From: an uncultured Woeseiaceae bacterium
Lineage (GTDB): Bacteria > Pseudomonadota > Gammaproteobacteria > Steroidobacterales > Woeseiaceae
Assembly: GCA_947259285.1 (NCBI GenBank)
Contig: CAMYMR010000005.1
Coordinates: 1-64,000, forward strand
Length of the DNA stretch: 64,000 bases
Direction: 5' to 3'
Shown here: positions 28,617 through 40,329 of the stretch, piece after piece
Layout: every line of letters starts with the position of its first letter
How positions within the stretch are numbered: the first letter of the stretch is position 1
Position numbers and translations under genes: made by a program
Notes under the pieces: generated by a model
What the model saw: only the letters and a program-made list of their open reading frames with translations
Databases searched by the model: none
Told to the model about the DNA's origin: nothing

Positions 28617-30101
28617 CTATGCCACTTCCGGGTAAAGCTCGTTCAACGGAATAGAGCGGCCGTCATCCTGTACGATGCGGCAGTGATAACGCCGAAGCTG
28701 CCGGGGTTCGGCGACACCACAGGAATGCGCAATAGTTCCGATCTCCTTGCGCATCGTCTCCGAGTACTGCTTTACGCGGAGCGCCTTGTCTTCGGGTACA
28801 AGGCCTCGCTGCAGTCGCTTGTTGTGGGTCGTGACGCCCGTGGGGCAGGTATTCTTGTTGCACTGCAGCGCCTGGATACAGCCCAGCGCGAGCATGAATC
28901 CGCGAGCCGAGTTTACGAAATCGGCACCAACGCAGAGGGCCCAGGCCGCATCCGAGGGGTTGATCAGTTTTCCGCTGGCGATGACCCGGATGCGTTCACG
29001 AAGGCCGTGGCGCTTCAGCATGTCGACCACAAGGGGCAGGCTTTCCTTCACCGGGAGACCGACATTGTCGATAAGACTCATCGGTGCTGCGCCGGTGCCA
29101 CCGTCGCCACTATCGACCGTAATGAAGTCCGGCGCGGTTTCGAGCCCACGCTGCGTGACTTCTTCAAACAGCTCGTCAAGCCATCCGTAGGCGCCAACGA
29201 CAGACTTGAATCCCACCGGTTTGCCAGACAAGTCACGAACATGACTGATCATGTCGAGCAGGTCCGATGCCGAGTTGATCTCCGGGTGACGATTCGGACT
29301 GATTGACGCTTCGCCCTCCGGGATACCACGTATTGCCGCGATCTCGGGGGTCACCTTTTCCGCGGGAAGGATGCCACCTTTGCCCGGTTTTGCACCCTGG
29401 CTAAGCTTCAGCTCGATCATCTTCACTTGCTCGATCTCGCCGATTTCACGCAGCCGATTGTCATCGAAGCCCCCGTCCGGGTTGCGCACGCCGTACTTTG
29501 CTGTTCCCACCTGGAACACGATGTCGGCGCCGCCTTCGAGGTGCCAGGGAGAAAGTCCTCCTTCTCCGGTGTTGAGCCAGTTGCCGGCCATTCTCGAGCC
29601 ATGCGAGAGGGCGAGCACGGCGGGCTTGGACAGCGCGCCGTAACTCATCGCGGAGACGTTGAAGATTGAATTTGCCTCGTAGGGCTTGCGCGAGTACGGC
29701 CCGATCACCAGAGGTGCCGTCGGCACCGCGTCTTCGTCCAGCGTCGGATAGGGACAGTTGACGAATATCGGCGTGCCCGCCGGCGTAAGGTTCAGCGTGG
29801 AACCGAATGCTACAGTGTTATCAACGCCTTTCGCGGCCCGGTAGACCCACGAGCGCTGTGCGCGGTTGAACGGCATCTCCTCGCGATCCAGCGCGAAAAA
29901 ATACTGGCGAAAAAACTCGCCCATGTGCTCGAACAGGTTCCGGAATCTGCCGATGACGGGAAAGTTCCGACGCACGGAGTGTTTGGTCTGCGTAACGTCG
30001 ACAACGAACATGAAGGCGATCGTGAGCAAGAACAGCCCTATGACGAATACCAGTATCGACGAAAGCGTCTGTACCCATGCGAATGTCGCATCCATCGTCA
30101 T
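28617..30101 (-). CDS. Membrane-anchored FMN-binding glutamate synthase-like protein
   Basis: 494 residues. An N-terminal helix (about 8-33, TLSSILVFVIGLFLLTIAFM) anchors the protein. The rest is the FMN barrel of the glutamate synthase large subunit: GGLSPWHLEGGADIVFQVGT, then KPGKGGILPAEKV and FITVDSGDGGTGAAP. A cysteine motif for a 3Fe-4S cluster follows (CIQALQCNKNTCPTG). The glutaminase and FAD/NAD parts of true GltBD are absent, so it is a stand-alone oxidoreductase with unknown acceptor. The start overlaps the DoxX stop by 4 bp (ATGA), showing translational coupling, and it ends the HvfB-HvfC-DoxX operon. Confidence 0.85.
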   Translation of the reverse strand: MTMDATFAWVQTLSSILVFVIGLFLLTIAFMFVVDVTQTKHSVRRNFPVIGRFRNLFEHMGEFFRQYFFALDREEMPFNRAQRSWVYRAAKGVDNTVAFGSTLNLTPAGTPIFVNCPYPTLDEDAVPTAPLVIGPYSRKPYEANSIFNVSAMSYGALSKPAVLALSHGSRMAGNWLNTGEGGLSPWHLEGGADIVFQVGTAKYGVRNPDGGFDDNRLREIGEIEQVKMIELKLSQGAKPGKGGILPAEKVTPEIAAIRGIPEGEASISPNRHPEINSASDLLDMISHVRDLSGKPVGFKSVVGAYGWLDELFEEVTQRGLETAPDFITVDSGDGGTGAAPMSLIDNVGLPVKESLPLVVDMLKRHGLRERIRVIASGKLINPSDAAWALCVGADFVNSARGFMLALGCIQALQCNKNTCPTGVTTHNKRLQRGLVPEDKALRVKQYSETMRKEIGTIAHSCGVAEPRQLRRYHCRIVQDDGRSIPLNELYPEVA

Positions 30102-30595
30102 GAAAAACGCCTGGCCAGGATGTGGTCGAGGCTGAGTTTACCGGCGCCCTTGAAGACCAGTGGCAGCAGCATGGCGATGAAGAGCAACGGGATGCGGAAA
30201 TTACCGAATCCTTTATTCGTTACGGCATAGCCTTTCCAGAGCTCCGCGAGGCTGTTCCACTCATCCGGCCAATGCACGCCGGCGATCGCTACAATCGACA
30301 GGATGATCAGGCTGAATGCCCAGAAGCGCGTGAACAGTCCGAAGACCAGGCAGGCAGCGCCCAGTATTTCTGCCCAGGTCGCCATGAACCAGCTGATTTC
30401 GACCGGAATAACGTTGAACGGAAACGGGAAGTTGTCCTGAATGTTCGCGAACCAGTTGTTGCCATTGAGCTTCATCGAACCTGCTCGTCCAAACTCGTAG
30501 GCCATTAGCAGCCGGATGGGCAATAAAGCGAGCCAGTCTCCTACCGGGTCCAGTACATCGACTACCTGGTCTTTCAGTCTGATAATTGCGTTCAT
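30098..30595 (-). CDS. DoxX family membrane protein, HvfD-like
   Basis: 165 residues from the ATG at 30595, with GAGG upstream; a TTG 15 bp earlier is less likely. Four membrane helices with WLALLPIRLLMAYEFGRAGSMKL, then WAEILGAACLVFGLFTRFWAF identify DoxX. In HvfABCD-type operons a DoxX protein accompanies the DUF692 and DUF2063 proteins and may serve as a quinone-linked redox partner. It lies 16 bp after the hvfC frame and overlaps the next gene by 4 bp. Confidence 0.88.
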   Translation of the reverse strand: MNAIIRLKDQVVDVLDPVGDWLALLPIRLLMAYEFGRAGSMKLNGNNWFANIQDNFPFPFNVIPVEISWFMATWAEILGAACLVFGLFTRFWAFSLIILSIVAIAGVHWPDEWNSLAELWKGYAVTNKGFGNFRIPLLFIAMLLPLVFKGAGKLSLDHILARRFS

Positions 30596-30611
30596 CAAAA
30601 TATTCCTCAAG

Positions 30612-31354
30612 TTAGCGTCGCGTGCCGATCAAGATCTGCAGCTGACGCATTTCATTGAGTGCGTCAGCGCCGTGCCTGATCAGGGCATCGACATCGTGGT
30701 AGCGGATCGATTCGGCGAGGTTGCGCAACAGCGCCTCGCCCGTCTTGTGACTTTCGTTATTTTCAACCGCGTCGAGCAGGCTGGCGGTAATTGCGTTGAG
30801 CTCGAGGAAGCGAACTTTGTCGCTGCTGTCCCTGTATAACGCCAGGTATACAGGCTGGGAGGCTGGCTCCGATGGCAAGAAGTCCGGCGAAATCCGGTGC
30901 ACCGGATAGTGATACGCGAACGCCCAGGCAAGCGCCGATTTGACGGGTGTTTCGGCTAGCAGATCCCCGTCAGGATAGTCGAGACGGATAAAGCCAGCTC
31001 CGCGTACTCGTAATGCGCAAGCTCGACCAGGAACGGCTCGTCATTCGAGGCAGCTTCATACTTTGTTTGCAGAAAGCTCAGGAATTCCTCAGGCAGCCGA
31101 AGAAAGTAGGGCGTCTCTGCCTGGTAGTCGCGCATGAATTGCCGGATCATGCCGTGCCATTGTTGGTCCGTCTTGATCTTCCGAATCACCGGAAACATTG
31201 TGGCGAGCAGGTTTGCGAGATTGTTGAAGAACAGCTTGCGATAGATCGCCATGCGCCGGTTCTCGATACCCTCGGGTGCCGGAACGTTGTCAGGATCCCT
31301 GATGTGCGCGGCAAACGCGTACTGCTTCTCCTGAAAGTCGGGGCGCTCAGGCAT
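30612..31354 (-). pseudogene. HvfC/BufC (DUF2063) protein, frame broken by one base
   Basis: The start is the ATG at 31354, overlapping the HvfB stop. The first frame reads MPERPDFQEKQYAFAAHI through LAHYEYAELALS and then runs out of homology, ending at a TAG at 30956-30958. The expected continuation is in another frame: RLDYPDGDLLAETPVKSAL, AFAYHYPVHRISPDF and on to the TAA at 30612-30614. The switch falls within 30983-30991, where a run of two C on the minus strand would be three in an unbroken gene. Restoring one base gives 247 residues, normal for this family, which partners the MNIO enzyme by recruiting precursor peptides. It could be a true mutation, a sequencing error or slippage. Confidence 0.85.
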
Positions 31355-32201
31355 TGGCGACATTCCGATTGACGGCGTCGGACTGCAGCTGCTTGATGCG
31401 TCGAACCTCGTCCAGCAATTCATGCATTGGCGGAAAATTGAAGTCGCGCTCAAGCAGCGTCGGCACCGGCCCGAATCGTTCGTAGGCCTCCTTGAGGAGC
31501 TCCCACGCCTGGTCGTCGACAGCAGTACCGTGCGTGTCGATCCGCAGATCCGGCGCCTCAACATAGTGCCCGGCGAGGTGAAAATAGCGAATCCGCTCAG
31601 CAGGCATGTCTTTGAGAAAATCACGCGGGTCATAGCGGTGATTGATGCTATTGACGACAATGTTATTGATGTCGAGCATCAGGTCGCAGTCGGATTCTTC
31701 GAGCACGGCGAGAAGAAACTCCTTTTCGCTCATTGACGTGTCGATCGCCGCGTAGAACGAGACATTTTCCAACGCGATACGTTGCTCCAGGATGTCCTGT
31801 ACGCGACGTACCCGCTCCGCGACATACCTGACGGCGTCGTCGGTGAACGGCAGCGGCATGAGGTCGTAGAGCTGGCCATCATCGCCACAGTAGCTCAGGT
31901 GCTCGGAGTACATACGGATGTTGTGCTCCGACATGAACGCTTTTATGTCCCGAACGAGCTGCTCGTTGAGGGGCGACGGCGCGCCTATCGATAATGACAA
32001 GCCGTGAATGAGGAAGGGGTAGCGCTCGGTGAAAAAGCGCAGCTTCTTGGCCAGCGCCCCACCCACGTGGATCCAGTTTTCCGGCGCCACCTCCATGAAA
32101 TCCACATCACTTGGTGGATTCGCCATCAGTTGATCGGCAATAGGCCGGCGCAGGCCGAGGCCTGCGCCGTGAACAGGGTATTGAGACTGTTGTTCGCTCA
32201 T
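31347..32201 (-). CDS. MNIO family (DUF692) oxidase, HvfB/BufB-like
   Basis: 284 residues of the multinuclear non-heme iron oxidase family, which modifies cysteine residues of ribosomal peptides (methanobactin MbnB, bufferin BufB, HvfB). Likely metal-binding residues are in LIHGLSLSIG (His66), SEHLSYC (Glu100, His101), ALENVSFY (Glu145), MLDINNIVVNS with His188, HLAGH (His208, His212), IDTHG (Asp222, His224) and LLERDFN (Glu251). The partner hvfC follows with an 8-bp overlap and DoxX after that. No gene for a DUF2282 precursor peptide lies upstream or anywhere in the operon. A sigma70-type promoter sits 49 bp before the ATG. Confidence 0.9.
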   Translation of the reverse strand: MSEQQSQYPVHGAGLGLRRPIADQLMANPPSDVDFMEVAPENWIHVGGALAKKLRFFTERYPFLIHGLSLSIGAPSPLNEQLVRDIKAFMSEHNIRMYSEHLSYCGDDGQLYDLMPLPFTDDAVRYVAERVRRVQDILEQRIALENVSFYAAIDTSMSEKEFLLAVLEESDCDLMLDINNIVVNSINHRYDPRDFLKDMPAERIRYFHLAGHYVEAPDLRIDTHGTAVDDQAWELLKEAYERFGPVPTLLERDFNFPPMHELLDEVRRIKQLQSDAVNRNVANA

Positions 32202-32249
32202 GGAGTCACCGTTTTGACGTTATCTGATCAGACCTCGCGGGCCCTCTAT

Positions 32250-32277
32250 TTATTACACCTGATATTTGCCTCAGCAA
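32250..32277 (-). promoter_or_regulatory. Promoter of the hvfB-hvfC-doxX-glutamate synthase operon
   Basis: On the minus strand TTGCTG (32277-32272) and TAATAA (32255-32250) are 16 bp apart, with TG directly before the -10 box. The -35 box abuts the DUF1841 stop codon, so the operon separates cleanly from the upstream genes. Confidence 0.5.
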
Positions 32278-32703
32278 TCAGGCCGTGAGGCGACGGAGGC
32301 GCTCCAGGTATTTCCGTTCATCCGGCGCCACGCCCTGGCTTTGGGAATCCCAGAGCGTTTCCGCGAGGCACTCGATCATCTGATGCTCGGCTAAATGCGC
32401 GTCGCCTGTTGCAGACGTCAGGGTCTCGTGGATCCTGGCGATGCCGGCGGGCCGGTCCGTGGCAACCTGCTCACGAATACCAAGGTGCAGGCCCATATGC
32501 AGGAATGGATTGGAGCGTCCGCCATCGGGTGTGTAATCGCGATCAAGGCCATCGCCTGTAACTTCTCCGTGGTATTCCGGGTGCCATTCAACGACGGCGG
32601 CTATCTGCGCTTCCAGCGGCGACATCGGCAGTCTTTCGCGTCGCTTTCGCCAGGCTTCCACGTACATCTTGCGAAGCTCGGTTCTGTCCTGACCAAAAAT
32701 CAC
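32278..32703 (-). CDS. DUF1841 family protein
   Basis: 141 residues. The opening MIFGQDRTELRKMYVEAWRK and HPEYHGEV, NPFLHMGLHLGIREQ and HQMIECLAE blocks fit DUF1841, a cytosolic family of unknown function common in proteobacteria. The start overlaps the nth stop by 4 bp (ATGA), so it is coupled to endonuclease III at the end of the rsx-nth operon. The conserved His residues could bind metal, but nothing shows a reaction. Confidence 0.88.
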   Translation of the reverse strand: MIFGQDRTELRKMYVEAWRKRRERLPMSPLEAQIAAVVEWHPEYHGEVTGDGLDRDYTPDGGRSNPFLHMGLHLGIREQVATDRPAGIARIHETLTSATGDAHLAEHQMIECLAETLWDSQSQGVAPDERKYLERLRRLTA

Positions 32704-33335
32704 GACAGCTCCTTCCTGGTGTATTCACACCACTCGACAATCGGGCAATCATCGCAGGCGGGCTTCCTCGCCTTGCACACGTAACGGCCATGCAGAATGA
32801 GCCAGTGGTGTGCGTCCTTCTTGAATTCGTCAGGCACCAGTCTCAGCAATCGCTTTTCAACGTCGAGCGGCGTTTTGCCCTTCGCGATACCGGTGCGGTT
32901 CGAGACCCGGAAGATATGGGTGTCGACGGCAATGGTGGGCTCACCAAAAGCCGTATTGAGGACAACGTTCGCCGTCTTCCTGCCGACGCCAGGGAGCGCT
33001 TCCAGCGCCGTTCGGGAGCGCGGCACCTGACTTCCATGCTGCTCGACAAGGATCCGGCAGGTCTTGATGATGTTCTCGGCTTTGCTGTTATAGAGGCCAA
33101 TGGTACGAATGTAAGGCTTGAGGCCTTCGACCCCGAGGGCCAGGATCGCTTCCGGCGTGCGCGCCGCCGGGAATAGCCTGGCGGTCGCTTTGTTGACGCT
33201 GACATCCGTCGCCTGTGCCGAGAGGATCACCGCGATCAGCAATTCGAATGGACTCTCGTAGATGAGCTCGGTTTCCGGAGCAGGCATACGCTCGCGCAGT
33301 GTGCTGAATATGGCCGTTCGTTTCGCCCTGTTCAC
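32700..33335 (-). CDS. nth: Endonuclease III
   Basis: 211 residues from a GTG at 33335, matching E. coli Nth in length and first residues (NRAKR). It excises oxidised pyrimidines and cuts the abasic site. The helix-hairpin-helix LPGVGRKTANVVL carries the catalytic Lys, VDTHIFRVSNRTG carries the catalytic Asp, and CKARKPACDDCPIVEWC binds the 4Fe-4S cluster. An upstream in-frame start at 33359 would overlap rsxE and is disfavoured. The rsxE-nth order is the same as in E. coli. Confidence 0.96.
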   Translation of the reverse strand: MNRAKRTAIFSTLRERMPAPETELIYESPFELLIAVILSAQATDVSVNKATARLFPAARTPEAILALGVEGLKPYIRTIGLYNSKAENIIKTCRILVEQHGSQVPRSRTALEALPGVGRKTANVVLNTAFGEPTIAVDTHIFRVSNRTGIAKGKTPLDVEKRLLRLVPDEFKKDAHHWLILHGRYVCKARKPACDDCPIVEWCEYTRKELS

Positions 33336-33345
33336 GACCGTGGCT

Positions 33346-34026
33346 CTATTTCCGAGCACGCCTGGCTTGCCCCAGCATCGCGTTCTTCAACTTTTCCCGT
33401 TGCCGGCGATCAATGACATTTTTTGCCGCTATGGCGAGCGCGAGACTGAAGAATGCGCCGGGCGGCAGTATGGCGAGCAGCCAGCCTCCGTCAAGCAGGA
33501 CCAGGCCGCGGATGGGCTCACCCCCGATCAGCATATCCATTCCCGCAAACAGCGATCCCTGCCCGAGCAGTTCACGAAATCCGCCGATCGCCATTAACAA
33601 GAGTGCGAATCCCAGGCCCATGACAAAGCCGTCGGCAAGGCTCGCCCCGACGGTGTTTCGGGATGCGAAGACCTCCGCACGAGCGACGATGGCGCAGTTC
33701 GTTACGATCAGCGGGATGAAGATTCCGAGCGACCGATCCAGGTAAGGGAACCAGGCTTTGAAAACAAGCTCGATGCAGGTCACCAGGCTTGCAATGATCA
33801 AAACGTAAATCGGGATCCGAATCTCGGTCAGTATCCATCGCCGTGTCGCCGATACCAGGCCATTCGATGCAACCAGCACGGCGATGGTGGCGATGCCCAA
33901 TCCCAGGCCGTTGACGAATGTCGAGGTGACGGCGAGAACCGGGCACAATCCGAGCAGCTGCACCAGCCCGGGATTCTCGTCCCAGAGGCCGGTCTTCAGA
34001 CGGTCAATAAATCTCGGCGACGTCAC
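33346..34026 (-). CDS. rsxE: Rsx/Rnf electron transport complex subunit E
   Basis: 226 residues with six membrane helices. NPGLVQLLGLCPVLAVTSTF, then LIVTNCAIVARAEVFASRN and the final membrane helix over GGWLLAILPPGAFF are typical of RsxE/RnfE. It forms the inner-membrane core of the ion-translocating ferredoxin:NAD oxidoreductase; in enterics the complex also keeps SoxR reduced. Its start overlaps the rsxG stop by 4 bp. Confidence 0.95.
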   Translation of the reverse strand: MTSPRFIDRLKTGLWDENPGLVQLLGLCPVLAVTSTFVNGLGLGIATIAVLVASNGLVSATRRWILTEIRIPIYVLIIASLVTCIELVFKAWFPYLDRSLGIFIPLIVTNCAIVARAEVFASRNTVGASLADGFVMGLGFALLLMAIGGFRELLGQGSLFAGMDMLIGGEPIRGLVLLDGGWLLAILPPGAFFSLALAIAAKNVIDRRQREKLKNAMLGQARRARK

Positions 34027-34673
34027 GGGACTTCCTTTTGTTGGTCGCTCTCCGCCGGCGCGTCAGCGAAGAGCTCATCACGATGCGCGTCGTAGTATAC
34101 CAATGTGTTCTTTACAGCCTTGACGATGGCTCTCGGCGTCACCGACGCGCCTGTAAGCTGATCGAACTGCCCGCCATCGCCCTTTATCGCCCATTCGCTT
34201 GGCGTCGGGTCGAGAAGTGAGCGGCCCTCGAATTGCTTCACCCAGTCGGACTTCGTAGATTCAACACGATCGCCGAGCCCCGGTGTCTCACGATGCTCCA
34301 GCACGTGCACGCCGGTCACCAGACCCTCCGTATCGGCACCGACAAGGATCCGAATCGGTCCTGCGTATCCGTCGCGCGCGCTGACGACGAACAGGGCTGC
34401 AACCGGTTCTTGCTGGGCGTAGACGCGATAGATTATCGCCGCCTCGGACCCCGGTAAATCGTGCGGCGGGGGCACGATGATCTTCGATTCGGTCACGCCG
34501 CTGTCGTAGAAGAGTCCCGATAACGCGGGTTGCAGGCTGCGTTCAAGCAACGCCTGTTCGTTGGCGTCGATGCGTTCTTCAGTCAGTCGGTAGGTGAACG
34601 CGACCAAGGTCGTGCAAATTGCCGCGATCACGGCCAGCGTTACGCCACCTTTGATTACCGTCGAAGCGCTCAT
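34023..34673 (-). CDS. rsxG: Rsx/Rnf complex subunit G, covalent FMN protein
   Basis: 216 residues from the ATG at 34673; the frame runs further upstream but overlaps rsxD there. One N-terminal membrane helix (about 8-28) precedes a periplasmic FMN-binding domain. LTGASVTPRAI contains the conserved Thr to which FMN is attached through phosphate. EHRETPGLGDRVE is the second family block. It overlaps rsxD by 4 bp and rsxE by 4 bp. Confidence 0.95.
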   Translation of the reverse strand: MSASTVIKGGVTLAVIAAICTTLVAFTYRLTEERIDANEQALLERSLQPALSGLFYDSGVTESKIIVPPPHDLPGSEAAIIYRVYAQQEPVAALFVVSARDGYAGPIRILVGADTEGLVTGVHVLEHRETPGLGDRVESTKSDWVKQFEGRSLLDPTPSEWAIKGDGGQFDQLTGASVTPRAIVKAVKNTLVYYDAHRDELFADAPAESDQQKEVP

Positions 34674-35722
34674 GGCGAGTCGCCCTTTTCGCTGTGGCCG
34701 ACAATGTGCGGTCGGGTTACGAGGTCGATGGCCGGTACCGCCATGTTCATAATGAGAACGGCAAAGGCGACACCATCCGCATAGCTGCCCCAGGTACGAA
34801 TACAGTAGATAAGGAAGCCAATTCCCAATCCGAACAGCAGTCGGCCACGTGGACTCGTCGCGCCGGAGACGGGGTCTGTCGCAATAAAGAAAGCGCAAAG
34901 AATCGTGGCGCCGCTAAAAAGATGGAACCCGGGGCTCGGGTTAGAACCGGGATCGACGAGGTACATTATAGTCGCCGGGACCAGCAGTCCTGCGCCGACA
35001 GCGACGGGGATATGCCAGCGGATGACCTTCTTGATCAGCAGCCAGAATCCGCCGATCGCAAGAAAGTTTCCAATCCACTCCCAGCCGCGGCCACCGAAGT
35101 CTCCCATAATTGGATTGGCGCGAATCTCAGCGACGGTCCGCATCCCCGTGAGACCGGACTTCATGACGTCGAGCGGCGTGGCGCGGCTTACAGCGTCAAA
35201 TCCCAATGCATCGGGTAGCGAGCCGGTCAGAGTGAATACCAGCGTCTGCAGCACCGTCAGGTACTCGTAGTCGATATCGCCGATGCGCGGTGCCGTCCAA
35301 AGATTCAGGTGCATCGGAAAAGCGACCAGGATCACGACGTAGCCCGCCATGGCAGGGTTGAAGACATTGAAGCCCAGGCCGCCGTACAGGTGTTTGGCGA
35401 CGACAACGGCGAACAGCGCCCCGGTGGCGGTGACCCACCACGGCGTCAATGAGGGCAGGGCGAATGTCAGCAACGCAGCCGCTACGAGCGCGCTGTAGTC
35501 GGTGAGGGCCACTTCGGGTGGTCGCTTGCGCAAGTGCATGACCAGATACTCGCCGCCTAGCGCAAACAGCGACGCGACCAGCAGATTAAAGATGAACCCG
35601 GGCCCGAAGAACCAGACGTGAGCGATAGCCGCGGGAATCAGCGCCATTAATACCTGCAACATCAGTCCGGGAACCGCGACCCGTGCCGACCAGTAGGGTG
35701 ATTCGCGCCGTGCAAACTCCAC
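34670..35722 (-). CDS. rsxD: Rsx/Rnf complex subunit D
   Basis: 350 residues with about nine to ten membrane helices, RsxD-type. The covalent FMN threonine lies in SRATPLDVMKS (around residue 187-191). FNPAMAGYVVILVAFP and HLFSGATILCAFFIATDPVS are family blocks. It is the main membrane subunit through which ions are thought to pass. It follows rsxC with 2 bp between and overlaps rsxG by 4 bp. Confidence 0.95.
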   Translation of the reverse strand: MEFARRESPYWSARVAVPGLMLQVLMALIPAAIAHVWFFGPGFIFNLLVASLFALGGEYLVMHLRKRPPEVALTDYSALVAAALLTFALPSLTPWWVTATGALFAVVVAKHLYGGLGFNVFNPAMAGYVVILVAFPMHLNLWTAPRIGDIDYEYLTVLQTLVFTLTGSLPDALGFDAVSRATPLDVMKSGLTGMRTVAEIRANPIMGDFGGRGWEWIGNFLAIGGFWLLIKKVIRWHIPVAVGAGLLVPATIMYLVDPGSNPSPGFHLFSGATILCAFFIATDPVSGATSPRGRLLFGLGIGFLIYCIRTWGSYADGVAFAVLIMNMAVPAIDLVTRPHIVGHSEKGDSP

Positions 35723-35724
35723 GC

Positions 35725-37239
35725 CTACTCGCCCTCGCTCTCTTTCTTTCGTTTCAGGATTTCAGCAATAGCAGCAGGGCCCGCCCGCCTGGCGGATTCT
35801 TTTTGCCGTGCAAGCTCGGACTCGCGGTCGGCTTTTTCCTGCTCGAGTCGCGCGTTTCTGGCCTCGAATCGCGCCCGCGCCCGCGCCGCACGGGCCTTTT
35901 CATCGGCGAGCTCCTGGATTCGACCCTTTGCGATTCGAAAATTTGCCGTCAGCGGTATATGGCTCGGACACACCAGGTCACAGCAGCCGCACTCAATGCA
36001 GTCGGTCAACCCGAAGTCTCGCAGCTTGGCCTCATTATCGGCGCAGGCGTGCCAGTACAGCTGTTGTGGCAGGAGCTGCACCGGGCAGACAGACGCACAG
36101 TCGCCGCAGCGTATGCAGGGGAGCTGGTGGCCTTCGAAGGAGGTCTTCAATACCACGAGAACCGAGTTCGTGGCTTTGACCAGCGGTACGCGATCGGTAC
36201 TGATCGACTTGCCCGTTAACGGGCCGCCGATAAACAGGTGATCGGCCTGCTCGGCATAGCCTCCCGTGAACTCAACGATATCGGCAATAGTCGTGCCAAT
36301 GCGCGCACGCACATTCATTGGATTGGCGATCCCGTCGCCCGCCACGGTCGTCACGCGCGAGATCAAAGGCTCATGGTTTTCGATCCAGTCATGAACGGCT
36401 GCCGCGGTACCGACGTTTTGTACGAGACAGCCAACATCAGAGGGCAATCCGCCGCTCGGCACTTCACGATTCGTCACCAACTGCACCAGCTGATCCTCGC
36501 CCCCCGAGGGATAGATCGTCGGCACCTGCTTGAGGATGATGCGCTCGTCGTCAAGTTCTCCCAGCGCTTCGCCAAGACTTTGCAACGCATCGGGCTTGTC
36601 GCTTTCCACCGCGAGATAGCAGGATTCGATCTGCAAGGCATGCAACAGCACCTTGGCGCCACTCAGGATTGACAGCGCTCGCTCGCGCATCAGCATGTCG
36701 TCACAGCTAATATACGGCTCGCATTCGACGCCATTGAGAATCAGGTAGTCGATATCGCCGGTTCGTGCCTGCATGAGCTTCTGCGCGGTAGGAAAAACCG
36801 CCCCGCCGAGCCCAACAATGCCTCCGTCCAGTATTTTCTTGAGCAGTGCTTCGGGCGCGAGATCCAGGTAGTGCTGGTCCTCTTTAGCCGGATCAATCGC
36901 GCGGTCCTCGCCATCACATTCGATGATGATGCAAGGTGCCTTGTCGCCGTAGCGTCCTGATACGGGCCAGGGTTCGATCGCGACCACCTTTCCGGACGAG
37001 GGCGCGTGAACGGGCGCGCCCAGTGATCCTTCCGGTTTCGCGAGCAGCTGTCCCTTGAGGACCACGTCGCCCATCGCGACAATCGGCTGCGCCGGATCAC
37101 CGACATGCTGCGTGATCGGGAGGGCCAGCTGCGCGGGTAGCGGCACATCGCGAATAGGGTGGGCCGTCGAAGCCGTCTTGTGCCCCGGTAGTCGTAAGCC
37201 ACCGTGCAGCTTGCCCAGATCATAGGTCGGTGCTGTCAC
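35725..37239 (-). CDS. rsxC: Rsx/Rnf complex subunit C
   Basis: 504 residues from the GTG at 37239, which overlaps the rsxB stop (GTGA). The N-terminal and central parts bind FMN and NADH ([27 protein letters not shown]). Two 4Fe-4S sites follow: [12 protein letters not shown] and [12 protein letters not shown]. The C-terminus is a short charged Ala/Arg/Glu-rich coil, much shorter than the long repeats of E. coli RsxC (about 740 residues). This subunit is the soluble NADH-side module. Confidence 0.94.
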
Positions 37240-37718
37240 GCGATCGGTCTCATGCTGATGCAATCCACGGGGCAGGGCGCGACGCACAGCTCGCAGCCCG
37301 TGCATTCGCTTTCGATAATCGTGTGCATGAAGTGCGCTGCGCCGACGATTGCATCGACAGGGCAGGCGTTGCGGCAGTGCACGCAACCGATGCATAAGGA
37401 TTCGTCGATAACGGCAACCGCGGGATGTGGTCGCTGCACCAGTGGCAATGGTTCGCGACCCAACAGACTGGCGAGCCGCTTAACGGTGACTTCGCCGCCG
37501 GGTGGGCAAAGGTTGATCGAAGCAGCGCCGTCGACGATCGCCGCCGCGTAGGGCCGACAACCTGGGTAGCCGCATTGCGCGCATTGGGTCTGCGGCAGCA
37601 GCTCATTGACCTTTTCGACAAGATCGTCGGACCTGGACGGCAGATGTCTCGACGCAAAGCTCAAAGCGAGGCCCGCGGCGAGGGCGATCAGTGCAATTGT
37701 CGCGATAGCTTCCCACAT
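37236..37718 (-). CDS. rsxB: Rsx/Rnf complex subunit B, ferredoxin-like
   Basis: 160 residues. A short membrane anchor (about 3-21) is followed by a 4Fe-4S cysteine motif (CAQCGYPGC) and two ferredoxin-type clusters ([24 protein letters not shown]). It relays electrons between the ferredoxin side and the membrane. It lies 9 bp after rsxA. Confidence 0.95.
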
Positions 37719-37727
37719 AGGCGGCCA

Positions 37728-38309
37728 TCAGGGACGAGCCATGCCCGAAAAACCCATGAAAGCCAACGACATCATTCCAGCGGTCATCAGCGCAATGGCG
37801 GTGCCGCGAAATGGCACCGGTATGTCGGCAACTTCGAGGCGTTCTCGAATAGCCGCAAACATCACGAGTACCAGCGCGAATCCCAGCGACGCCCCGAAAC
37901 CATAAAACACCGACTGCACGAAGCCTTTCGACTGCTGGACGTTGAGCAAAGCAACGCCAAGCACAGCGCAGTTGGTCGCAATCAGCGGGATATAGATACC
38001 CAGGACTTGTTCAAGAAGCGGGCTCATCCGACGTACCATGATTTCCGTAAACTGCACGCTTGCCGCAATGACCAGTATGAAACTGATCGTGCGCAAGTAC
38101 TCCAGTCCAAGCGGCACCAGCACATATTGGTGAAGGAGATACGCCGTTGCCGACGATAGCGTCAAAACGAAAGCGGTCGCGAGCGACATACCCGTGGCGG
38201 CTTCGAGGTTTCTCGATACACCGAGAAACGGGCACAGCCCAAGGAACCTGACAAGTACGAAGTTATTGACCAGCACAGTGCTGATTAGGATGACGATCAG
38301 TTCTGTCAT
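37728..38309 (-). CDS. rsxA: Rsx/Rnf complex subunit A
   Basis: 193 residues, the same length as E. coli RsxA, from the ATG at 38309; the open frame continues upstream into metG but homology starts here. Six membrane helices, with [20 protein letters not shown] and [15 protein letters not shown], are diagnostic. It heads the six-gene operon A-B-C-D-G-E-nth and follows metG by 16 bp, so it may be read from the metG promoter. Confidence 0.96.
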
Positions 38310-38325
38310 TTGGCTATTGTAAGGG

Positions 38326-40329
38326 CTACTTGACCCGCATGCCCGCTCTTGCACCGTCATCGGGCGACAGCAGAAAGATATCCTCGCCGCCAGGACCGGC
38401 TGCCAGAACCATGCCCTCGGATACGCCGAATCGCATTTTCCTCGGGGCGAGGTTAGCGACGACGACGACGTGCCGACCAGGCAGGCTCTCCGGATCATAA
38501 GCGGCTTTGATACCTGCAAAGACCTGGCGTGTCGAACCACCGACATCCAGAGTAAGCGCCAGCAGCTTGTCGGCACCCTCGACCGATTCGGCCTTCTCGA
38601 TACGCGCGATCCGCAAGTCGACATTCATAAAATCATCGATACTGATCGTGTCATCGTCTGCAGTCGTATCAGGCACAGGTTGACTCTCCTGGGATTGCTC
38701 AATCATGCGTGTGACCTGGTCGGGTTCCACGCGAGTAAGGAGTGGTTCGAATCTGGGCAGCGTTGCGGCGAGCAACGGAGACGTTGCGTCCTGCCACTGC
38801 CACCGCTCTTCATTCAAGAATCGGCGCGCACTCGCCGCGACCGCCGGAATAACGGGCGAAAGGTAGATAATCAGGCTGCGAAACATGTTCAGGCCCTGTG
38901 TGCAGACCAGCTGGACGTCAGCGATGCGGTCCGCATCCTTGATCATTACCCAGGGCTTGTGTTCGTCAATATAGCGGTTCGCTTTATCGGCCAGGGCCAT
39001 TATCGAGCGCATCGCTTTCGAGTACTCACGACGCTCATAGAGTAATGCAATCGAATCGGCAGCCCCTTGAAAGTCTGCGAAAAGGTTTTCGTCCGGCAGT
39101 CTGTCGGCCAGTCTTCCATCAAATCGCTTGTTGATAAAGCCGGCGCAGCGGCTCGCAATATTGATCAGCTTGCCAACCAGGTCGGAGTTGACGCGGGCGA
39201 TAAAGTCCTCGAGGTTCAGGTCGATGTCCTCGATCGTCGGACCGAGCTTTGCGGCATAGTAGTAGCGCAGGAAACTCGGATCCAGGTTGTCAAGATAGGT
39301 CCTCGCCTTGATGAACGTGCCGCGAGACTTTGACATCTTCTGGCCATTGACTGTCAGGAAGCCGTGCGCGAAAACGCTGGTGGGCGTGCGAAAGCCAGCC
39401 CCGCCGAGCACCGCCGGCCAGAACAACGTGTGGAAATACATGATGTCCTTGCCAATAAAATGGTAGACCTCGACATCGCTACCGGGCCTCCAGTAGGCAT
39501 CAAAATCCAGGTCCTTGCGGCGGCCGCAGAGATTCATGAAGCTCGCCATGTAACCGACAGGCGCGTCGAGCCAGACGTAAAAATACTTGTCATCGGTGCC
39601 GGGTATACGAAATCCGAAATACGGCGCATCCCGGGAGATGTCCCAGTCCTGAAGACCCGCATCGAACCACTCGTTCAGCTTCGCGACCACGTTCTTGTCC
39701 AACGTCGCATCCGTCATCCAGGCGCGAAGGCGATCGCCATACTCGCTGAGTTTGAAAAAGTAATGCTCAGACTCGCGCATTACCGGGGCCGTCCCCGAGA
39801 TAACCGATACAGGATCGATCAGATCGGCCGGCGTATAGGTCTTGCTGCAATTCTCACAGGCATCGCCATACTGATCTTCTGTCTTGCAGAACGGGCATGT
39901 GCCGCGCACAAATCGATCCGGCAGGAACATGCGTTCCTTCTCATCGTACGCCTGCTCAATCGTACGTGTGTAGATATCCCCTTTCTTACGGAGCGCCTCA
40001 AAGATCTCGGTAACAAGAGCCTCATTCTCCGGGGAATGCGTCGTGTGATAGTTGTCGAACTCGATGCCGAAGTCGCGAAAATCATTCGCAAACTCGGCGG
40101 AGTATCCTTCCGTCAATGCTTCAGGGGTAATGCCCATCTCGCGTGCCTTGAGCATGATCGGGGTGCCGTGCGCGTCGGAGGCGCAAACGTAAATGCAGTC
40201 GTGGCCGCGCAGTTTCTGGAAGCGCACCCAGATATCGGTCTGCAGGTACTCGACAAGGTGACCCATATGGGGCGACCCGTTTACATACGGCAGGGCGCTC
40301 GTGACGAGGATCTTTCGCTGCTGGGACAT
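38326..40329 (-). CDS. metG: Methionyl-tRNA synthetase
   Basis: 667 residues of the long, dimeric bacterial type. The HIGH-type motif reads HMGH (in [16 protein letters not shown]), KMSKS is at [11 protein letters not shown], and the zinc knuckle is CPFCKT with a second pair CENC. The C-terminal ~100 residues ([20 protein letters not shown] onward) form the EMAP-II-like tRNA-binding domain. It leads on to the rsx genes on the same strand. Confidence 0.97.

Follow-up and report, generated by a model that had tools for sequence, protein, structure and literature searches.

We describe here an hvf operon in a 64,000-nucleotide stretch of DNA (the window) from an uncultured Woeseiaceae bacterium, comprising positions 1 to 64,000 of contig CAMYMR010000005.1 (G000:C5:1-64000 in our numbering of genomes, G, contigs, C, and loci, L); the source genome is a 3.2-Mb assembly of 166 contigs that is 84.8% complete. 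Judged from sequence comparisons, and at a probability of roughly 0.8, the operon supplies the enzymes of a captophorin/oxazolin-type system, split between two loci, for a ribosomally synthesized and post-translationally modified peptide (RiPP), in which the precursor is encoded in trans, the two halves share a promoter-like motif and a gltS-like gene is an accessory member. The gene models and alignments show that hvfB, hvfC and hvfX, joined by the gltS-like gene at half of the decidable loci, follow rnf-nth-DUF1841 on the same strand with the expected precursor slot empty, that a predicted precursor with EG[S/K]CG repeats lies elsewhere behind genes for an extracytoplasmic function (ECF) sigma factor and a DUF3379 protein, and that both units carry the putative promoter element GTAATAA-N15-GGTC[A/T], at the sole two exact sites in the genome of the window. 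Throughout, the family is Woeseiaceae (107 genomes), and the class sample consists of 274 gammaproteobacterial genomes, the window's own included.

An HvfB-type operon with an empty precursor slot

On the minus strand of the window, the genes run in the order rnf genes, nth, DUF1841, a 76-bp gap, hvfB, hvfC, hvfX and the gltS-like gene. The features are as follows; the rnf coordinates are those of the longest open reading frames (ORFs), and true starts may differ.

31347..32201, minus strand: hvfB, multinuclear non-heme iron-dependent oxidative (MNIO) enzyme, 284 amino acids (PF05114 340 bits; NF003818 (HvfB) 420.2 bits, cut-off 360)
30956..31354, minus strand: N-terminal part of hvfC, DUF2063 partner protein, frame stops early (PF09836 90.5 bits; NF050145 165.7 bits)
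30612..30983, minus strand: C-terminal part of hvfC (NGO1945_C), in a different frame (PF22106 89.7 bits; NF050145 111 bits)
30098..30595, minus strand: hvfX, DoxX-family membrane protein, 165 amino acids (NF050144 143.1 bits, cut-off 80; PF07681)
28617..30101, minus strand: gltS-like gene, accessory, with a Glu_synthase domain of the flavin mononucleotide (FMN)/3Fe-4S type, 494 amino acids (PF01645 286 bits)
32230..32256, minus strand: promoter-like motif GTAATAA-N15-GGTCT, 5' of hvfB (one of 2 exact sites genome-wide)
32202..32277, no strand: empty precursor slot, 76 bp, from DUF1841 to hvfB (in related Gammaproteobacteria an EGKCG precursor lies in the slot)
32278..32703, minus strand: DUF1841 gene, syntenic anchor (PF08897 169 bits)
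32700..33359, minus strand: nth (endonuclease III), syntenic anchor (PF00730, PF10576)
33346-34026, minus strand: Rnf-Nqr (Pfam match)
34023-34898, minus strand: FMN_bind, an rnf gene (Pfam match)
34670-35722, minus strand: RnfD-type (Pfam match)
35725-37395, minus strand: RnfC (Pfam match)
37236-37718, minus strand: RnfB-type (Pfam match)
37728-38624, minus strand: second Rnf-Nqr (Pfam match; the whole rnf run is 33346..38624)

An earlier sequence-only reading had placed an MNIO, a DoxX and a glutamate-synthase-like gene here, and profile matches on the minus strand bear this out (PF05114 340, HvfX 143 and PF01645 286 bits). The ATGA overlap at the hvfX/gltS-like junction and the 76 bp (32202-32277) between hvfB and DUF1841 were likewise confirmed. 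That reading had also remarked on the absence of a DUF2282 gene, and a search of the 84.8% complete genome indeed returned 0 matches. However, DUF2282 was the wrong precursor class to expect, because the enzyme scores above the HvfB cut-off and below that of BufB (NF050167 266.4 bits, cut-off 310), and because 10 of 18 relatives carry an EGKCG precursor. By these profiles, the hvfB of the window encodes the enzyme of an HvfA/oxazolin-type system, not of a bufferin type. In an alignment with 3BWW, the NN and DTHG stretches of that protein are conserved in HvfB, which is predicted to oxidize the cysteines of EG[S/K]CG repeats. Across the family, DUF2282 is found in only 4 of the 107 genomes, each time next to a paralogous MNIO, and DUF2282 was rejected as the missing precursor.

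The relatives in question are hvfB genes outside the family at 62-66% identity; an EGKCG precursor stands directly upstream in ten of the 18 (L189, L191, L193, L194, L199-L203 and L205, with DUF1841 seen upstream in six), and none is shown in the other 8. At two loci of the class sample outside the family (L338 and L340), the order is rnf-nth-DUF1841-precursor-hvfB-hvfC-gltS.

Within the family, PF05114 is present in 87 of the 107 genomes. We fetched 95 MNIO loci, 86 with orthologous hvfB (at least 70% identity) and 9 with paralogous MNIOs, after excluding five partial MNIO places (two in G007 and one each in G045, G082 and G054). The orthologous loci share the order rnf-nth-DUF1841-hvfB-hvfC-hvfX wherever contigs allow; DUF1841 was undetected beside nth in three of them (L100, L109 and L111), and hvfX gave no BLAST match in 13, several of which are cut by contig ends. 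The gap between DUF1841 and hvfB ranges from 31 to 266 bp, with a median of 66 (n = 79; starts estimated from BLAST). None of the fetched flanks of the 86 orthologous loci contains an ORF with at least three E-G-x-C-G motifs, a pattern that covers this kind of precursor and leaves other kinds outside its reach, and a hidden EGxCG precursor in the hvfB flanks was thus rejected. At none of these 86 loci did we find the contiguous precursor-MNIO-partner (ABC) order. The nine paralogous loci served as a positive control: in each of them, a Cys-rich ORF of bufferin-like or MerC-bufferin type precedes the MNIO by no more than about 1.5 kb. Four of these nine ORFs were tested against NCBIfam, and DUF2282 was seen in four. 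At L032, L033 and L084 (genomes G051 and G033), a MerC-like membrane domain is fused to a bufferin-like domain near the paralogous MNIO, and the L033 copy matches BufA2 in NCBIfam. MerC/Buf2 fusions have already been described (PMC12452194).

The probable precursor lies in trans

One of two possibilities raised by the sequence-only reading was that the precursor lies elsewhere, and a candidate was found there: an EG[S/K]CG gene on another contig that co-occurs with the MNIO and shares a motif with hvfB. It is strongly supported, on the profile matches and gene distributions given below, that the precursor is not missing and that the whole family has a split system. The own precursor gene (L216:5008-5352, equal to C81:10007-10351) encodes 114 amino acids with a signal-like N-terminus, the leader SPFEMSALSSGYML and 7 EGSCG repeats that contain all the cysteines. 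It matches the HvfA-family repeat model NF050137 at 46.1 bits (cut-off 19.5), so that the E-G-x-C-G repeat is present in trans. This model matched 65 of the 107 family genomes, the window's own included (contig C81), and a profile built from 15 precursors, two of them from outside the family, gave matches in 86 of the 107.

The precursor neighborhoods examined cover 40 loci from 38 genomes, chosen mainly from the best NF050137 matches. In these the repeat is mostly EGSCG, with some EGKCG. In vitro, FonBC is described as tolerating Ala, Arg and Thr at the third position of the repeat, and not Phe or Glu (PMC13097082); by analogy with this tolerance, it is plausible that the family enzyme accepts Ser there.

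Of the 107 genomes, 83 contain both precursor and MNIO and 17 contain neither; 4 have an MNIO alone and 3 a precursor alone (Fisher p = 2.6e-13, or 4.6e-7 when a genus of reduced genomes is left out, neither value being corrected for kinship). The MNIO-only genomes are 62-82% complete, and many of the 17 genomes with neither are small. In the single-contig genome G105 and on a 3.6-Mb contig of G011, the precursor and MNIO places are more than 1 Mb apart.

A second type of EGxCG precursor was seen at L226/L256 (G094:C2) and at L218 and L257 (G006), where it heads a run of genes for a thiamine diphosphate (ThDP)-dependent enzyme, an aldehyde dehydrogenase (ALDH), the gltS-like protein and HvfX. 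In these two family genomes the cluster has no hvfB match nearby; in G094 it stands behind the precursor, and in G006 the arrangement was seen on two contigs.

An ECF sigma gene and a shared promoter-like motif

Genes for an ECF sigma factor and a DUF3379 protein precede the precursor in 36 of the 40 loci, hemB lies before the unit in 36 and tagA follows it in 35. Of the four exceptions, two (L218 and L226) hold the second precursor type and two (L222 and L241) are cut by contig ends. The sigma protein matches PF04542 and PF08281 (regions 2 and 4), and the DUF3379 protein, which has a membrane-like segment in 36 of 38 cases, is presumed to be an anti-sigma factor. Many of the loci, as the consensus shows, share a short inverted repeat, GCCC...GGGC, in the interval from the DUF3379 gene to the precursor (for example L216:4943-5007); it was rejected as an attenuator since its folds were not clearly better than those of shuffled sequences (z from -1.61 to 0.67 for 5 sequences).

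Aligning the regions upstream of hvfB and of the sigma gene revealed the common element GTAATAA-N15-GGTC[A/T]. Exact copies stand 5' of hvfB in 74 of 82 loci (4 of the 86 loci were dropped because their upstream sequence was too short) and 5' of the sigma gene in 33 of 36; allowing one mismatch raises these counts to 81 of 82 and 36 of 36. Although spacers of 14-16 were allowed, every match has 15. Over 1.63 Mb (both strands) of hvfB loci, the 74 exact matches fall one per promoter with none elsewhere (90 matches at one mismatch or fewer), and the motif is absent from the 200-bp stretches preceding nth, rnfE, DUF1841, hvfC, hvfX, gltS, APC or lpdA. The window's own genome holds exactly two exact sites, one 5' of hvfB and one 5' of the sigma gene, and the reversed-pattern control gave 0; family-wide there are 266 sites versus 52 for the control, and 41 of the 107 genomes hold exactly two. 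As far as such a shared promoter-like motif indicates, a precursor gene elsewhere in the genome would be coregulated with hvfB, an outcome that the sequence-only reading had counted against its own interpretation.

In the class sample, the exact motif matches 87 of the 274 genomes; outside the family, inspection by eye found no listed site within 1 kb upstream of a listed hvfB place. An ancestral gammaproteobacterial regulon marked by the motif is thus unsupported. At 32 site loci (L267-L298; one listed locus per genome and not a fair sample), the motif leads to hvfB in 7, to the sigma gene in 9, to a paralogous MNIO in 1, to a DoxX-gltS pair in 1 and to other or unassigned sequence in 14. The site before the paralogous MNIO (L277; G011:C1:213440-213466) lies in a genome where a BufA2-type precursor precedes that MNIO (L031), and the regulon may therefore include a second cluster in G011. 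The site at L282 (G023:C17:11400-11426) stands directly before the DoxX-gltS pair, which suggests that the pair can be a regulon member by itself.

The gltS-like gene is an accessory and recurrent neighbor

The gltS-like protein has one hydrophobic segment, at the N-terminus (residues 16-34), and the pattern C-x5-C-x4-C, which is present in the window copy and in 35 of the 37 linked copies. It aligns with part of the glutamate synthase large chains, with conserved stretches aligned to 7MFM, and is expected from its family to bind FMN and 3Fe-4S. It is not a full-length large subunit: only PF01645 was matched in its 494 amino acids, and NF008730 gave 126.8 bits against a cut-off of 1047.

Of the 86 family loci, 37 carry the gene downstream of hvfC/hvfX and 37 have none there, with 12 undecided. 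Since half of the decidable loci (37 of 74) are without it, the gene cannot be obligatory, and an obligatory partnership was rejected. By hand cross-match, 44 family genomes have a copy at 60% identity or above, which lies at the operon in 36, is undecided at contig ends in 5 and lies elsewhere in 3; 35 of the 37 genomes without the gene at the operon have no such copy in their mostly incomplete assemblies. The FMN protein may still be a redox partner of the MNIO, as the sequence-only reading suggested, the linkage being real and recurring across Gammaproteobacteria, but not an obligatory one. That reading had named relatives with an unlinked fourth gene as evidence against itself, and one decidable family locus in two is of that kind.

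In the class sample, the gltS-like gene occurs in 96 of the 274 genomes, hvfB (at least 45% identity) in 96 and both in 46, a modest co-occurrence at the genome level (Fisher p = 0.0014). The distance is more telling: in 23 of the 46 genomes, the two genes are within 10 kb of each other, and in 18 within 3 kb, where about 0.3 would be expected for a 3-Mb genome and random placement. No pairing of the gltS-like gene with MNIOs below 45% identity was found in this sample. Of the 23 linked genomes, 20 were fetched, two (G172 and G303) were left out and the remaining one is the window's own. Among the linked loci there are at least six gene orders: precursor-hvfB-hvfC-gltS, hvfB-gltS-DoxX-hvfC, precursor-gltS-DoxX-hvfB-hvfC, ThDP enzyme-ALDH-gltS-hvfB-hvfC, precursor-hvfB-hvfC-ThDP enzyme-ALDH-gltS and hvfB-hvfC-hvfX-gltS. 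A DoxX gene on the same strand lies no more than 212 bp from the gltS-like gene in 15 of 22 hvfB-linked loci versus 2 of 18 loci without a nearby hvfB, a comparison in which the DoxX model was partly built from the same loci and the 18 unlinked loci were viewed with 1.5-kb flanks only. On a tree of the gltS-like copies (46 rows, 17 of 43 inner branches starred), the label "linked" needs 14 changes (shuffled mean 15.5), at least 5 of them forced by well-supported branches, and the linkage of gltS and hvfB has therefore been repeatedly gained or lost. The gltS-like gene is thus an accessory yet recurrent member beside hvfB across Gammaproteobacteria.

It also has an existence independent of hvfB, since 50 of the 96 class genomes with it are without hvfB at 45% identity or above (40 of them without any MNIO match at E 1e-60); the reverse holds for 50 genomes. 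At L205 and L346-L348, hvfC and the gltS-like gene belong to same-strand runs in which genes for a ThDP-dependent enzyme and an aldehyde dehydrogenase separate the two. Genome G001 has no MNIO match at all, yet at L260 (G001:C57) a gltS-like gene is found close to nth, DUF1841 and lpdA, as if the hvf genes had been lost and gltS kept.

A frame break in hvfC of the window

The DUF2063 partner named by the sequence-only reading was recovered in both halves, each of which matches the HvfC-partner model NF050145 (165.7 and 111 bits), but not as one intact frame, which that reading had missed. The DUF2063 half and the NGO1945_C half lie in different frames, separated by a single break at about 30956-30983. 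In 82 of the 83 family loci where both halves were matched, the best hits of the two share one frame, the exception being the window. Both halves retain normal similarity (71-79% to L072, L086-L088 and L124). The break may be a true mutation or an assembly error, either being possible for a single break in a metagenome-assembled genome (MAG). Another single frame break within the family was seen at L123 (G102:C10), where hvfB is matched in two frames.

Alternative readings

A system split between two loci has to be weighed against the possibility, also raised by the sequence-only reading, that the MNIO acts on a different, non-HvfA protein as an orphan maturase while the distant EG[S/K]CG peptide is unrelated or goes unmodified. 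Such a role would fit the lack of a linked precursor in the fetched flanks of the 86 family loci, the 4 of 87 MNIO genomes (62-82% complete) without a precursor and the 3 genomes with a precursor and no MNIO match, but the tight co-occurrence of the two genes, the motif that they share at exactly two sites in the own genome and the same precursor type carried in cis by the same enzyme type in related Gammaproteobacteria make it very improbable, and another substrate is no longer needed given the trans precursor. We regard it as similarly improbable that the motif marks a wider stress regulon in which enzyme and peptide are both stress genes without forming a dedicated pair. Here the 47 of 107 genomes with 3-7 exact sites, together with a few extra sites that by eye precede envelope- or redox-looking genes (for example a thioredoxin-like ORF at L285), stand against the exactly two sites of the own genome and of 41 of the 107 genomes. 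Several results do weigh against a split system served by a dedicated regulon. The own precursor does not reach the narrower equivalog NF050188 (38.9 bits, cut-off 95), its signal peptide was judged by eye and the co-occurrence statistics leave kinship uncorrected. Only 28 of 38 DUF3379 proteins contain HxxxCxxC (contig ends truncate 2 of the 10 without it), and no report joining DUF3379 with an ECF sigma factor was found in open-licence full texts. The motif was derived from the very alignments that gave its first counts, so that partial independence is confined to the whole-genome scans; besides the 47 genomes with extra sites, 19 of the 107 hold none or one, 14 of the 32 site loci lead to other or unassigned sequence and, because it is unlinked to hvfB outside the family in the class sample, the motif is a local feature. 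Finally, if the hvfC break is real, the system is disabled in the very genome of the window.

That break also bears on the reading of the window copy as a decaying system, with hvfC a pseudogene and the operon on its way to loss. We consider this unlikely, as the two halves of hvfC are normally similar to their relatives, the precursor, the sigma gene and the remaining operon genes have open frames and a lone break in a MAG could stem from misassembly. Somewhat closer to the evidence, though still doubtful, is the view of the gltS-like gene as a passenger that is near the locus only through inherited synteny: it is absent beside the operon at 37 of 74 decidable family loci, it persists near nth and DUF1841 in G001 without an MNIO match, it is found with ThDP-enzyme and ALDH genes, and 50 class genomes have it without HvfB at 45% identity or above while 50 show the reverse. 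Inherited synteny alone would sit poorly with 23 of 46 genomes having the genes within 10 kb (about 0.3 expected), with several gene orders that enclose the gltS-like gene within the run, flanked by hvfB and hvfC or by precursor and hvfB, with DoxX adjacent at 15 of 22 linked versus 2 of 18 unlinked loci, and with a linkage label that changes 14 times, at least 5 of them on well-supported branches.

Proposed mechanism and significance

For a split system of the kind proposed, envelope stress (oxidant, thiol or metal) would free the sigma factor from its presumed DUF3379 anti-sigma factor, and the freed sigma factor would transcribe its own operon, including the precursor, as well as the distant hvf operon. 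By extension from characterized relatives, HvfC would bind the precursor, HvfB would turn the repeat cysteines into 5-thiooxazoles and the modified peptide would be exported to the periplasm, where it may bind Cu(I) or some other soft metal. A membrane redox module made up of HvfX and the gltS-like protein could aid maturation without being essential, perhaps by passing electrons to HvfB or by keeping substrate thiols reduced.

In vitro, HvfBC is described as requiring a reductant, and its mixed-valent diiron state, reached only with HvfC, as correlating with activity (PMC13419390). This requirement leaves room for a cellular reductase, for which the gltS-like/DoxX pair is a natural candidate. 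Ferredoxin feeds the ferredoxin-dependent glutamate synthase, and the donor may be fed by reduced ferredoxin because the operons so often follow rnf. That the gltS-like protein with DoxX/HvfX is the physiological electron donor of HvfB, possibly ferredoxin-fed and within a dedicated two-promoter ECF regulon, is a speculative proposal and on balance rather unlikely; if true, a Woeseiaceae ECF regulon would bring together precursor and maturase genes from distant parts of the genome, along with the reductase gene where there is one.

Neither the family-wide split with a shared ECF motif nor the gltS-like gene beside such operons was found reported in open-licence full texts, as judged from titles and the openings of abstracts; two surveys, PMC12452194 and PMC13097082, use neither "glutamate synthase" nor "FMN" in their main texts. 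Surveys seek the precursor next to the enzyme first, and an entire bacterial family could therefore be mistaken for one with orphan maturases. With the shared motif, an enzyme can easily be matched to a precursor encoded in trans, and the FMN/Fe-S protein, whose gene recurs at such loci, is a specific candidate for the reductant that HvfB-type enzymes use in the cell. The ECF sigma gene beside the precursor, with a Cys-containing presumed anti-sigma factor, points to a testable stress.

Comparison with known systems

Precursor genes away from their enzyme are familiar from the prochlorosins, in which one ProcM enzyme serves many precursors. Those peptides differ from the system described here in their chemistry and in the number of precursors, and we know of no two-site ECF regulon among them. 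The gltS-like protein shares with the glutamate synthase large subunit the PF01645 domain, the C-x5-C-x4-C pattern and the stretches aligned with 7MFM, whereas it is without the rest of that enzyme and has a hydrophobic N-terminal segment.

The bufferins Buf1 and Buf2 likewise combine an MNIO, a DUF2063 protein and DoxX, and Buf1 clusters are described with sigma/anti-sigma genes (PMC12452194). Unlike in bufferins, the BufB model here stays below its cut-off and DUF2282 is absent, and the anti-sigma factor is NrsF in Buf1 (PMC12452194) and presumably the DUF3379 protein here. In H. influenzae, expression of a doxX-MNIO-DUF2063 operon is reported to depend on the ECF sigma factor RpoE2, and the RpoE2 regulon and the N. 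meningitidis SigE regulon thus resemble ours in joining an ECF sigma factor with such an operon (PMC7907618). In those regulons, the operon itself includes the gene for a periplasmic small protein, and the sigma gene is grouped with msrAB (PMC7907618), whereas here the sigma gene has the precursor as its neighbor and the enzyme genes are far off.

The closest counterparts are the EGKCG captophorins. EGKCG peptides are described as products of MNIO-PME1 pairs, which make 5-thiooxazole peptides that bind Cu (PMC13097082), and the EGKCG (Lys-Cys) group includes oxazolin (HvfABC, Haemophilus), fontiphorin (FonABC) and bulbicupramide (MmrABC) (PMC13097082, PMC13419390, PMC12538549). Shared features are the HvfB-type MNIO, the DUF2063 partner (PME1/HvfC) with its RiPP recognition element (RRE), whose frame is broken in the window, and the precursor with EG-x-CG repeats, with DoxX common in the class and not universal. 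In contrast to these captophorins, the precursor here lies far away, its repeat is mostly EGSCG, it has its own ECF sigma/DUF3379 pair beside it, and a gltS-like gene joins the enzymes in half of the decidable loci.

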